Below, piece after piece: positions 14,520 to 42,750 of a stretch of 64,000 nt of DNA. A program made the position numbers and the translations under genes. The stretch is taken from positions 806,001 to 870,000 of the forward strand of contig NZ_RCDI01000001.1 of NCBI RefSeq assembly GCF_003675875.1. The letters are read 5' to 3'. Numbering within the stretch: position 1 is the stretch's first letter; each line of letters starts with the position of its first letter. The stretch is from Halostella limicola. Lineage in GTDB: Archaea > Halobacteriota > Halobacteria > Halobacteriales > Natronoarchaeaceae. A model generated the notes under the pieces. That model did no database searches. It had not been told where the DNA came from and saw only the letters and a list, made by a program, of their open reading frames with translations.

Positions 14520-14669
14520 ACCCTAAGGTAAGTCACTCATCGCATATAGGCGTTGCGTCGGCCGTACTCCCGCTCCCTCTTGCGGTTTGGTCCGAATCGT
14601 GGCGGTAGTTTCTTATACTCGCGGGGGTCCCGAAAGCTGTTACACTCCCCCGGCGCCTACCGGTGGGCG

Positions 14670-15938
14670 ATGGCAGTCATCGGGATCGACGACACGGACT
14701 CGCGCGAGCGCGGGCAGTGCACGACTTACGTCGCCCACACCGTCGCCGAGCGGATCCGGGCGGCGGGCGGCGACGTCGAGCGCCTGCTCCTCGTCCGCCT
14801 CAACCCCGCCGTCCAGCACAAGACTCGCGGGAACGCGGCGCTCGCGATCCACGCCGACGTCGACCCCGGCGAGGCCTTCGAGATCGCCCGCGACGAACTC
14901 GACGGCGCGGCCGAGACGGCGGACGAGAACACCAACCCCGGCCTCGTCGTCGCGCCCGGCGACCCCGACGCGGTGCCGGACGCGGTCGCCGCTTTCGCCC
15001 GCGAGGCGATGCGGGACCACCACGATATCGAGGACGCGACGGCGCTCTCGGACGCCCAGGGTTACCGCCGCGCCGGGTGGAAGAACGCCCGCGGCACCGT
15101 CGGCGCGCTCGCCGCCGTCGGCGCGTGGCGCGCCGTCCCCGAGTGGACCTACGAGTACATCTCCTATCGCTACCCGGACGCCCGAGGGACCCCCCGCGAC
15201 GTCGACTACGATTCCGTGTTCGCGGCCGCGGACGAGGCCTACCCCGACGCGTGGGACACCGTCGACCGCGCCGAGGGTCAGGCCGTCTGCGTCCCGCGCA
15301 CGCCCGGCCCGATCCTCCACGGGATCCGCGGGGACGACCCCGAGACGGTCCGCGAAGTCGCCGAGAGCATCGAGAGCGAACCGGTCGAATCGGCGGCCCT
15401 TTTTCGCGCGAATCAGGGGACCGACGCCCACCTCCGCGACGCCGCCCTCGCCGACGTGCGCGACGGCCGGTCCTACCGCGTCGACGGGACGGTCGCGTCC
15501 CCCCCGGAGACCCGCGAGGGCGGCCACGTCTTCCTGACGCTCGAAGACGGCGACGCCGCCCTCGACTGCGCCGCCTTCGAACCCACAAAACGGTTCCGCG
15601 ACCGCGTCCGCGCGCTCCGCGCCGGCGACCGGATCACCGCCTGCGGCGAGGTCGCCGACGGCACGCTCAAACTGGAGAAGTTCGCCGTCCGCGACCTGAA
15701 CGAGACGGAACTGGTCACGCCGGACTGCCCCGACTGCGGGCGGTCGATGGAGAGCGCCGGCCGGAACCAGGGCTATCGGTGCCGGGACTGCGAGACGGCG
15801 GCCGACGGCAAGGTCGAGCGGCGGGTGGAGCGCGACCTCGAAATCGGGTGGTACGAGGTGCCGCCCTGCGCTCGGCGCCACATCGCCAAGCCGTTGGTAC
15901 GAGGTGGGTTCGACGCGCCGACGTATCCGGAGCGGTGA
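14670..15938 (+). CDS. tiaS: tRNA(Ile2) 2-agmatinylcytidine synthetase
   Basis: Modifies the wobble cytidine of tRNA-Ile(CAU) with agmatine so that it reads AUA codons; essential in archaea. The 422-residue protein starts with the catalytic GIDDTDSRERGQCTTY segment (residues 4-19), has LNPAVQHKTRGNAALAI near 46-62, an OB-fold domain near 275-345 and a C-terminal zinc ribbon with CPDCG and CRDCE near 355-378, ending PLVRGGFDAPTYPER. A TATA-like TTCTTATACT lies near 14610-14620, leaving a leader of roughly 30 bases. The last 54 bases are duplicated downstream (see 15885-16096). Confidence 0.93.
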   Translation: MAVIGIDDTDSRERGQCTTYVAHTVAERIRAAGGDVERLLLVRLNPAVQHKTRGNAALAIHADVDPGEAFEIARDELDGAAETADENTNPGLVVAPGDPDAVPDAVAAFAREAMRDHHDIEDATALSDAQGYRRAGWKNARGTVGALAAVGAWRAVPEWTYEYISYRYPDARGTPRDVDYDSVFAAADEAYPDAWDTVDRAEGQAVCVPRTPGPILHGIRGDDPETVREVAESIESEPVESAALFRANQGTDAHLRDAALADVRDGRSYRVDGTVASPPETREGGHVFLTLEDGDAALDCAAFEPTKRFRDRVRALRAGDRITACGEVADGTLKLEKFAVRDLNETELVTPDCPDCGRSMESAGRNQGYRCRDCETAADGKVERRVERDLEIGWYEVPPCARRHIAKPLVRGGFDAPTYPER

Positions 15939-16096
15939 GTACGGTGTTTCACCGGAGACGAGGGAGGGCCGACCGAGTCTCCGGCTTTTTCGCCCACGTT
16001 TTTCGAGCAGAGCGAGCGAACCCGACGCGGAAAAAGGTGGTCGCGAAACCGTTGGTACGAGGTGGGTTCGACGCGCCGACGCATCCGGAGCGGTGA
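15885..16096 (+). repeat. Duplicated tiaS 3' end
   Basis: Bases 15885-15938, the last 54 of tiaS including its stop, recur at 16043-16096 with 51 of 54 identical. The second copy would still encode KPLVRGGFDAPTHPER and a stop but has no start of its own and is in a different frame from tiaS. The 104-base spacer holds an 8-bp inverted repeat (CCGGAGAC ... GTCTCCGG) and T runs. The 12-mer TGGTACGAGGTG occurs three times here, at 15849, 15895 and 16053, which could have promoted misaligned recombination. The downstream copy is best read as a gene fragment left by duplication or replacement. Confidence 0.85.
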
Positions 16097-16141
16097 CAAA
16101 AAACCGATGTACATATCCGATCCGCGCGAGCGCACTCCGGC

Positions 16142-16942
16142 ATGACCGAGAGCGACCGAGGAGACGTCGTCGTCCGCGCCGCGCGCGAGGGTGCAGACGT
16201 CGCCGCCGACTACTTCCGAACGGGCGTCGCCGTGGAGACGAAAGACGGCGACACGGACGTGGTGACGCGAGCCGACCGAGAGGCGCAGGAGCGCGTCATC
16301 GAGACGATCCGGGCGGACTACCCGGACGTCACGATCGTCGGCGAGGAGGAGGGCGCACCGACGACGGTGCCCGACGAGGGGCCGGCCTTCGTCGTCGACC
16401 CGATCGACGGGACGAACAATTTCGTTCGGGGAATCCCGTTCTGGTGTACGAGCGTCGCCGCGGTCGTCGACGGTGAGCCGGTCGCGGCCGCGACGGTCGC
16501 GCCGCCGACCGACGAGGAGTTCGTCGCCGTCGACGGGACGACGCGGCGCAACGGCGACCCGGTGTCGGTCAGCGATCGCGACGACCCCGCCGTCAGCACC
16601 GTCGCGCCGACGCTGTGGTGGGACTTCGACCGCCGCGACGAGTACGCCGCCGCCGCGGAGGGGGTCGTCGAGCGGTTCGCCGACCTCCGGCGCTACGGCT
16701 CGGCGCAGCTGTCGCTCGGCTACGTCGCGGCGGGCGCGCTGGACGGGCTGTTCTCGAACATCTACGGCAACCCGTGGGACACCGTCGCCGGCGTCCACCT
16801 CGTCCGACAGGCGGGCGGCGCGGCGACCGACGTCGAGGGCGACAGCTGGCGACACGACAGCAAGGGACTGGTCGTCTCGAACGACCTGATCCACGACGAA
16901 GTGCTGGCGGCGGCGCGGGACGCGGAAGAGCGGCGGAGCTGA
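16142..16942 (+). CDS. Inositol monophosphatase family protein
   Basis: Mg-dependent sugar/polyol phosphatase of 266 residues. Metal and substrate motifs are intact: VGEEEG near residues 63-68, VDPIDGTNNF near 84-93 and NPWDTVAG near 207-214. In archaea such enzymes may hydrolyse inositol-1-phosphate or fructose-1,6-bisphosphate, or 3'-phosphoadenosine phosphate; the sequence does not decide. The gene is followed by an AT-rich promoter and the phnDCE importer. With the upstream duplicated tiaS tail, its own promoter must lie within 16097-16141. Confidence 0.88.
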   Translation: MTESDRGDVVVRAAREGADVAADYFRTGVAVETKDGDTDVVTRADREAQERVIETIRADYPDVTIVGEEEGAPTTVPDEGPAFVVDPIDGTNNFVRGIPFWCTSVAAVVDGEPVAAATVAPPTDEEFVAVDGTTRRNGDPVSVSDRDDPAVSTVAPTLWWDFDRRDEYAAAAEGVVERFADLRRYGSAQLSLGYVAAGALDGLFSNIYGNPWDTVAGVHLVRQAGGAATDVEGDSWRHDSKGLVVSNDLIHDEVLAAARDAEERRS

Positions 16943-40803: not shown

Positions 40804-42750
40804 TTACTGCTCCGCGACGGAGAGTTCGTACTCGAAGAAGCCGTTCGTCCGGAACCCGCCGGCGATGATGAAGTACTCCCCGCCGTCGTCGAGGGTGACC
40901 CCGCTTATCTGCGAGTTCAGCGAGCCCCCGTAGTCGTCGTTCTCGGCGATGACGTTGCCGTCGGGACCGAGGAGATAGAGGTAGGTGTCGCCGTCCGCGG
41001 AGTTCATCTCGATGGTGACGGTCTCGCCACCGTCGGCCCGGAGCGACACCGGCTCGAAGTACCCGTTGAACCGGTCGCTCCGCGGGTCGTCGCGGTCGAT
41101 CTCGCCGCTCGCGGTCTCGCCGATCCGGATAGACCGGAGGTCGGCTCCTCCGCCCCCGCTCCCCTGCGCCTCCTGGACGCTGAGCTCGTACTCGAAGAAG
41201 CCGTCCGACCGGAACCCGCCGGCGATGACGGTGTACTCCCCGGCGTCGGCGAGTTCGGCGTACTCGATCCGCGAATTGAGTCCGCTACCGCCGTCGTCGT
41301 CCTGAGCGATGACGCTGCCGGCGGGGTCGAGGAGGTAGAGGTAGGTGTCGCCGTCCGCGGCGGTCATCTCGATGGAGACGGTCTCGCCGCCGTCGGCTCG
41401 GAGCGACACCGGCTCGAAGTACCCGTTGAACCGGTCGCTCTCCGGATCCGCGGGGTCTATCTCGCCGGTAGCGGTTTCGCCGATCTCGATCGACCGGAGG
41501 TCGGTTCTCCCGTCCACCTGCGCCTCCTGGACGCTGAGCTCGTACTCGAAGAACCCGTTCGTCTGGAACCCGCCGGCGACCACGGTGTACTCGCCGGCGT
41601 CGGAGAGTTCGGCGTACTCGATCCGCGAGTTCAGCGAGCCCGCGCCGTCGTCGTCCTGAGCGATGACGCTGCCGGCGGGGTCGAGGAGGTAGAGGTAGGT
41701 GTCGCCGTCCGCGGCGGTCATCTCGATGGAGACGGTCTCGCCGCCGTCGGCCCGGAGCGACACCGGCTCGAAGTACCCGTTGAACCGGTCGCTCTCCGGG
41801 TCGCCGTGGTCGATCTCGCCGGTGGCGGTCTCGCCGATCTCGATAGACCGGAGGTCGCGACCGTCGGACGCGTCCGCCTCTTGGACGCTGAGTTCGTACT
41901 CGAAGCCGACCGAGCCGCCGTAGCTGGTCGCGACGATGGTGTACTCCTCGTCGGCGGAGGCGGGGAACGCCACGAGCCGCGAGTCGAGGCCGTCACCGCC
42001 GTCGTCGTCGGAGGCGACGACGGCCCCGGTCGAGTCCGCGACCCCGAAGACGGGGTCCGCCTCGTCGGACGACATCTCGATGGTGACCGCCTGGTCGGAC
42101 GCCACTTCGAACGAGACGGGCTCGTGGAACCCCTCGTAGTCCTCGAACTGGTCGGGGTCCTCGACGTCGACTTTCCCCGTCGCCGTCTCCCCGACCTCGA
42201 TCGATCGGAGGTCGATCTTCTCGCCCTCGACGCCCTCGCGGACGCCGAGTTCGTAGGGGAAGTCCACCTCGTCGCCGTAGCTCGCGGCCAGCACGACGTA
42301 CGTGCCGTCCTCGGGGAGTTCGTACCCCGCGATCTGGGCATCGAGTTCGCTGGAACCGCCGTCGTCGTTCTCTTCGAGGACGGTCCCGTCCTCGTCCAGC
42401 AGATAGAGGTACGGGTCGCCCGGGTCCGACTCCATCGTCACGGTGACGACGTCGCCCTCGCGACCGGTGAACGTCCACGGCTCGTAGCGGCCGTCGTACG
42501 CGGGGTCACTCGGGGCTGACTCCGTGACCCGGCTGCTCGCGGTCTCGCCGTAGCCGATCCACTCGGCCTCCCCCTCGACCGGCAGTTCGATCTCCTCTCG
42601 CTCGATCGTCTCGGTTCCCGTCGTGCCGTTCCCGGACGACAGCGCTCCTCCGTCGTCTTCGAGGTAGCTCGAACAGCCCGCGAGTCCACTAACGAACGCG
42701 GCCGCGCCGGCTTGGAGGATCCGGCGTCGCCGTTCGTTTTCTATCGTCAT
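40804..42750 (-). CDS. Exported lipoprotein with five PPC-like repeats
   Basis: Protein of 648 residues. An RRRR-bearing Tat signal (residues 6-25) ends in the lipobox LAGC at about 23-26, so the protein is anchored on the outer face of the membrane. After an acidic linker come about five pre-peptidase C-terminal (PPC)-type beta repeats of roughly 115 residues; repeats 3-5 are almost identical, each with ADGDTYLYLLDPAGSVIA-like cores and a FFEYELSVQEA end. PPC domains are usually attached to proteases or cell-surface enzymes, but no catalytic domain is seen here. Likely a surface adhesion or binding protein. The nearby gap 42751-42844 is short and plain. Confidence 0.82.
   Translation of the reverse strand: MTIENERRRRILQAGAAAFVSGLAGCSSYLEDDGGALSSGNGTTGTETIEREEIELPVEGEAEWIGYGETASSRVTESAPSDPAYDGRYEPWTFTGREGDVVTVTMESDPGDPYLYLLDEDGTVLEENDDGGSSELDAQIAGYELPEDGTYVVLAASYGDEVDFPYELGVREGVEGEKIDLRSIEVGETATGKVDVEDPDQFEDYEGFHEPVSFEVASDQAVTIEMSSDEADPVFGVADSTGAVVASDDDGGDGLDSRLVAFPASADEEYTIVATSYGGSVGFEYELSVQEADASDGRDLRSIEIGETATGEIDHGDPESDRFNGYFEPVSLRADGGETVSIEMTAADGDTYLYLLDPAGSVIAQDDDGAGSLNSRIEYAELSDAGEYTVVAGGFQTNGFFEYELSVQEAQVDGRTDLRSIEIGETATGEIDPADPESDRFNGYFEPVSLRADGGETVSIEMTAADGDTYLYLLDPAGSVIAQDDDGGSGLNSRIEYAELADAGEYTVIAGGFRSDGFFEYELSVQEAQGSGGGGADLRSIRIGETASGEIDRDDPRSDRFNGYFEPVSLRADGGETVTIEMNSADGDTYLYLLGPDGNVIAENDDYGGSLNSQISGVTLDDGGEYFIIAGGFRTNGFFEYELSVAEQ

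Follow-up and report, generated by a model that had tools for sequence, protein, structure and literature searches.

The closest described counterparts of the arrangement reported here are the T6SS immunity-gene arrays and Rhs loci, in which 3' ends are displaced through homology-facilitated illegitimate recombination (PMC5361080). There, the old ends stay in tandem behind the newer end and the arrays can later spread by homologous recombination; the ends belong to toxins or immunity genes that are unrelated and subject to selection. In the polyploid Haloferax volcanii, alleles are efficiently homogenized by intermolecular gene conversion, which the relevant section of the source places between chromosome copies (PMC8223754). 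Deletion-coupled insertions and repeat-mediated deletions, as well as PATEs, SMRs and MITEs, have been described in Haloquadratum (PMC3119063), and T-stretch (T5C) terminators in Haloferax (PMC7237163).

The locus analysed here lies in a window of 64,000 nucleotides of Halostella limicola DNA (the whole stretch analysed, to which all coordinates refer). An older end of a tiaS-like gene stands in tandem behind the live one, as in 3' end displacement; in contrast to the T6SS and Rhs ends, the haloarchaeal tails are orthologous, near-synonymous ends of housekeeping genes and, at the loci examined, lie behind one conserved hairpin. The comparison with H. volcanii concerns a gene end and its adjacent silent copy instead of two chromosome copies. 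The short palindromic noncoding elements and unexplained insertion joints of Haloquadratum are also reminiscent of this layout, whereas PATEs and SMRs lack target duplication and, in the passages describing them, are given no stated link to copied gene ends (PMC3119063). Like the T5C terminators (PMC7237163), the hairpin element has TTTTTC runs just 3' of the gene, but here the T runs lie within a long covarying hairpin and the terminator role is predicted from sequence. By analogy, the arrangement may work like displaced ends of the Rhs/T6SS type combined with concerted evolution. No published description of the layout of gene-end copy and hairpin was found in the open-access literature.

The repeated end of tiaS

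The tiaS-like gene matches the NCBIfam family NF040849 with an E value of 2.3e-104 and 349 bits, below the 600-bit cut-off. The features of the locus are the following.

14670–15938, + strand: tiaS-like gene, tRNA-Ile2 2-agmatinylcytidine synthetase family (open reading frame with start ATG at 14670; NF040849)
15883–15938, + strand: t1, live 3' end of tiaS with stop TGA at 15936–15938, reading IAKPLVRGGFDAPTYPER (sequence comparison)
15939–15993, + strand: spacer with a GC-rich inverted repeat (15952–15959 and 15977–15984) followed by CTTTTTC (T-run 15986–15990) (sequence; like layout at other loci)
15994–16040, + strand: conserved haloarchaeal T-rich hairpin, shortened form (alignment with 27 other copies; inner-helix covariation of the family)
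16041–16096, + strand: t2, silent duplicate of the tiaS 3' end starting at the 3' foot of the hairpin, reading VAKPLVRGGFDAPTHPER-stop (sequence comparison)
16142–16942, + strand: next gene, inositol-monophosphatase/HisN-like (open reading frame; profile matches below the curated cut-offs)

The duplication described in the initial annotation was confirmed, and its view of one copy as the current 3' terminus of the gene and of the other as a leftover gene end is supported: 15885–15938 and 16043–16096 share 51 of 54 bases, the next best 54-mer match in the window, with both strands compared, being 30/54. The full repeat extends over 56 nt (15883–15938 and 16041–16096, spacing 158 nt), and the three differences comprise two close to its start and a third, TAT/CAT, which exchanges Tyr and His, all as first noted. 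The 102 nt between t1 and t2 hold the GC-rich inverted repeat, CTTTTTC and the T-rich hairpin CCCACGTTTTTCG..CGGAAAAAGGTGGT, whose inner stem is without its 5' half in the window and whose arms are CCAC-G-TTTTTC and GAAAAA-G-GTGG. The start of t2 coincides with the foot of this hairpin, and the upstream region of the inositol-monophosphatase/HisN-like gene begins directly after the end of t2. The structure following t1 contains T runs and would be terminator-like; a mechanical terminator scan called no terminator here.

The 12-mer TGGTACGAGGTG is indeed present three times (15849, 15895 and 16053), but the suggestion that it drove the duplication has to be abandoned, since the joint lies upstream of it and since it occurs once in the tiaS loci of G001 and G190 and is absent from that of G008, all three of which have tail copies. 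On the other hand, the hairpin between the copies, which had escaped the initial annotation, is the common factor across other genes and species.

Across the order, the exact pattern KPLVRGGFD was found in 289 of 392 genomes, a search that degenerate tail copies escape. Tandem tiaS tails were seen in G000 (two), G001 (three), G008 (two) and G190 (two), G008 belonging to another genus of the same family and G190 to another family; G341 has two copies of the pattern on different contigs. In all four tandem cases a hairpin lies between the tails, and the position of the joint is the same to the codon (VAKP). The comparison with relatives that had been proposed at the outset, asking for one copy or two and for Tyr or His, was made among the five genomes of the genus: of the four congeners, three (G002, G003 and G004) have a single tail and the fourth (G001) has three, spaced 148 nt, while the live tail reads His in all four. 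At the three sites separating t1 from t2 in the window, all four congeners side with t2, including this His; the ancestral state is therefore that of t2, the silent copy, and t1 is derived. Seven bases separate the two silent tails of G001 from each other, all of them silent changes, including TGA versus TAG. In the tiaS locus of G190, the 10 nt past t1 agree with the native sequence downstream of the gene in G285, the remainder of which follows t2, so that the hairpin and t2 look like the inserted part there.

Another reading frame stays open across tiaS and the hairpin and on into t2 (14663–16096, 477 codons) and is probably a by-product of high G+C content. Elsewhere in the window, a minus-strand open reading frame at 40804–42750 contains a long internal direct repeat (40810–41925 versus 41170–42282, 78% identical, offset 360).

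The hairpin and gene-end copies at other loci

The order gene end, stop, spacer, T-rich hairpin and gene-end copy recurs at other genes, to which matches of the hairpin pointed, and is a real haloarchaeal arrangement. An unbiased scan of gene tails over ten genomes (1.96 Mb; 1607 genes from a home-made gene caller; score of at least 44) returned seven gene-tail copies, compared with none when tails were matched to the downstream regions of other genes and a single one in the comparison of gene starts with their own upstream regions. Six of the seven have a hairpin-like TTTT..AAAA motif in between, the seventh being an adjacent repeat without the motif; such a motif lies downstream of 57 of the 1607 genes, and its association with tail copies gives Fisher 1e-8. 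Genes with tail copies, as identified by Pfam, encode 4Fe-4S (NuoI-like), etfA, radical-SAM, Spt5, diphthamide-synthase-like, citrate synthase, PheT and GatB proteins, and the tail copy of an ornithine/aspartate carbamoyltransferase-like gene scores 42, under the cut. A further gene, which we take from its motif to encode a DHH-type protein and for which Pfam gave no match, has tail copies in G190, G062, G291, G321 and G229 and three tails in G294. Spt5 tail copies are present in 6 of the 32 genomes of one genus.

The exact 21-base core of the hairpin has 54 occurrences, which are spread over 31 of the 392 genomes and belong to 12 of the 95 genera. Behind 22 of 53 distinct hairpins a copy of the upstream flank was scored (mismatched control pairs, 0/53), a count that includes two tRNA-like matches (L295 and L313) and one hairpin self-repeat (L301) and without them stands at 19 hairpins in 17 loci, two of which, L303 (tiaS of G001) and L306, hold two hairpins each; L293 is the tiaS locus of G190. 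Sixteen of the 17 loci involve gene 3' ends and one, L287, a gene start. In 20 of the 22 scored cases the flank copy starts no more than 8 nt from the foot of the hairpin; its other end usually lies close to the stop codon. The remaining 31 hairpins were scored without a flank copy and, by eye, their foot often adjoins a promoter-like region, the 3' end of a tRNA or the stop of a gene running towards the hairpin. At L311, L312, L313, L314 and L321 the foot adjoins, by sequence, tRNA-like 3' ends of the TTCGAATCC type, and at L301 (G355 C3:253303-256323) three hairpin cores stand in tandem with a spacing of 43 nt.

Folded alone, the window region is no more stable than its shuffles (z 0.49); since the hairpin copy in the window is shortened, an alignment-based covariation test was used in place of the fold. 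Over 28 aligned copies the inner helix has 45 cells changed on both sides, versus 15 in shuffled alignments, and a covariation score of 0.226, versus 0.047 when shuffled and at most 0.035 when slid. The element is a dispersed extragenic hairpin with a covarying stem, in this respect resembling REP-like sequences. The boundaries fixed on both sides that mark a transposable element or MITE were not found, the right one being fixed and the left one variable. Rfam gave no match over the hairpin (window 15500–16500), and a plasmid collection gave only weak or partial matches.

Divergence between live and silent ends

In the pooled scored pairs, the 88 differences between the copies fall on codon positions 1, 2 and 3 in 10, 9 and 69 cases, respectively, a count that uses gene frames chosen by a simple script and takes in both pairs of each of L303 and L306 as well as L301, which contributes two differences at second positions; 67 of the differences are silent and 21 are not. 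Simple decay of t2 would, by our own estimate, place about 44% of differences at third positions, from which the excess departs with p 5e-11 when related loci are counted as independent.

The joint GGTGGACTCGGACGAC of the DHH-type gene is identical in four species of one genus (G294, G321, G291 and G229). Its 75 nt tails differ within genomes at 0–1, 3, 6 and 1 positions, respectively, and between genomes at 5–15, and are therefore more alike within than between genomes, clearly so in three of the four species; homogenization is weak in G291, as its 6 differences overlap the 5–7 seen between genomes. In Spt5, G200 has two identical tails, t1 and t2; in G130, a relative of G200, t2 is still a variant that comes nearest to t2 of G176. 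Together with the likeness of tails within genomes, these patterns point to exchange and gene conversion, processes known to be strong in haloarchaea (PMC8223754). The Spt5 copies of G395, in which t2 carries amino-acid changes and t1 is closer to relatives, and of G300, in which t2 has no stop, fit what plain decay predicts, and the result as to which Spt5 copy is resident was mixed.

The body of the DHH-type gene of G190 is 90–100% identical to that of G285, while its t1 matches at 62/74 and its t2 at 69/75 positions; the two tails are of different ancestry and, it appears, of different age. No near donor of this t1 emerged from the 392 genomes, in which other long matches reached about 76–82% at best. 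A live end of other ancestry than the body and the old end was seen for this gene, the picture being mixed for tiaS and Spt5.

Origin of the arrays

The two copies in the window are best read, with a probability of roughly 0.5, as an array of two tiaS 3' end units around the conserved hairpin, in which recombination homogenizes the silent old end. Unit 1 (t1, spacer and hairpin) would be the live gene end with its terminator-like structure, and unit 2 (t2) an older, silent gene end, the hairpin behind it having been lost or never present. The founding recombination would have joined the 3' foot of the hairpin to a point some 30–120 nt inside the gene, probably between two alleles, one of them hairpin-bearing; for such a between-allele origin the best support comes from one gene, the DHH-type gene of G190. 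The copy number, one to three tails, may later have been changed by homologous recombination and by gene conversion from one tail to another, and t2 would stay coding-like through gene conversion and allele exchange, no function of t2 being needed.

It is rather unlikely that the hairpin is instead a mobile element, inserting near gene ends and duplicating a long stretch of its left flank onto its right side. Such an element would suit the fixed right boundary, the dispersal of a hairpin with a covarying stem, the recent copies that are up to 100% identical including noncoding bases (L290) and the case of L287, where the copied flank is the start and not the end of a gene, which lies on the other strand. 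The flank copies, however, range in length between about 30 and 120 nt and in many cases stop at the stop codon, unlike a target duplication, 31 of the 53 hairpins scored without any flank copy, and the copies differ chiefly at silent codon positions. The same silent differences weigh against a plain tandem duplication of tail, spacer and hairpin through slippage at the hairpin, after which the copy would have decayed neutrally and the last hairpin disappeared, because decay would yield far fewer third-position changes than the 69 of 88 seen (kinship ignored); moreover, most two-tail loci, the window included, have no second hairpin after t2. We consider this course of events improbable, despite the degenerate or truncated second hairpins that end some arrays (etfA of G003, the carbamoyltransferase-like gene of G190, G229) and the copies that extend beyond the stop into the spacer.

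Frame and stop are often kept in t2, the stop even being exchanged between TGA, TAG and TAA, as might be expected if t2 were selected for a role of its own in RNA stability, in regulation or as a translated fragment. This is highly improbable, as the frame from the hairpin into t2 varies between genes, several Spt5 t2 copies have in-frame stops at their 5' end, the t2 of G300 ends without one and most congeners lack t2 altogether. The initial annotation had taken the kept frame and stop as a sign of recency or of a role such as RNA stability; neither is required, and a better explanation is that the tails exchange sequence and undergo gene conversion. The chance of an assembly artefact, its named refutation, is practically negligible: no supporting evidence was found, and the same layout is repeated at other genes in other genomes and unrelated assemblies.

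The hairpin might itself be a recombinogenic end: a nuclease or transposase might act at its 3' foot and join it to the inside of an adjacent gene end, generating cassettes of gene end and terminator with the tails as homology arms, and the hairpin could spread gene by gene between haloarchaeal species without an enzyme of its own; this reading is offered tentatively and is rather unlikely. Were the array reading true, recombination would be frequent at the ends of haloarchaeal core genes, a zone that a single conserved hairpin marks, and the tail arrays would represent dated traces of allele replacement as well as a natural assay of gene conversion. Small in-frame remnants, which annotators may take for short genes, would also be explained.

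Two further observations concern Spt5. Over the loci L331–L360 the final 60 nt of the coding sequence show more divergence from species to species than do the 325 nt before them, which holds also in comparison with genomes without a tail copy (for example G200/G217, 97.5% versus 53/60). At L353 (G300), 3' of Spt5, the hairpin core is inverted between the two tails.
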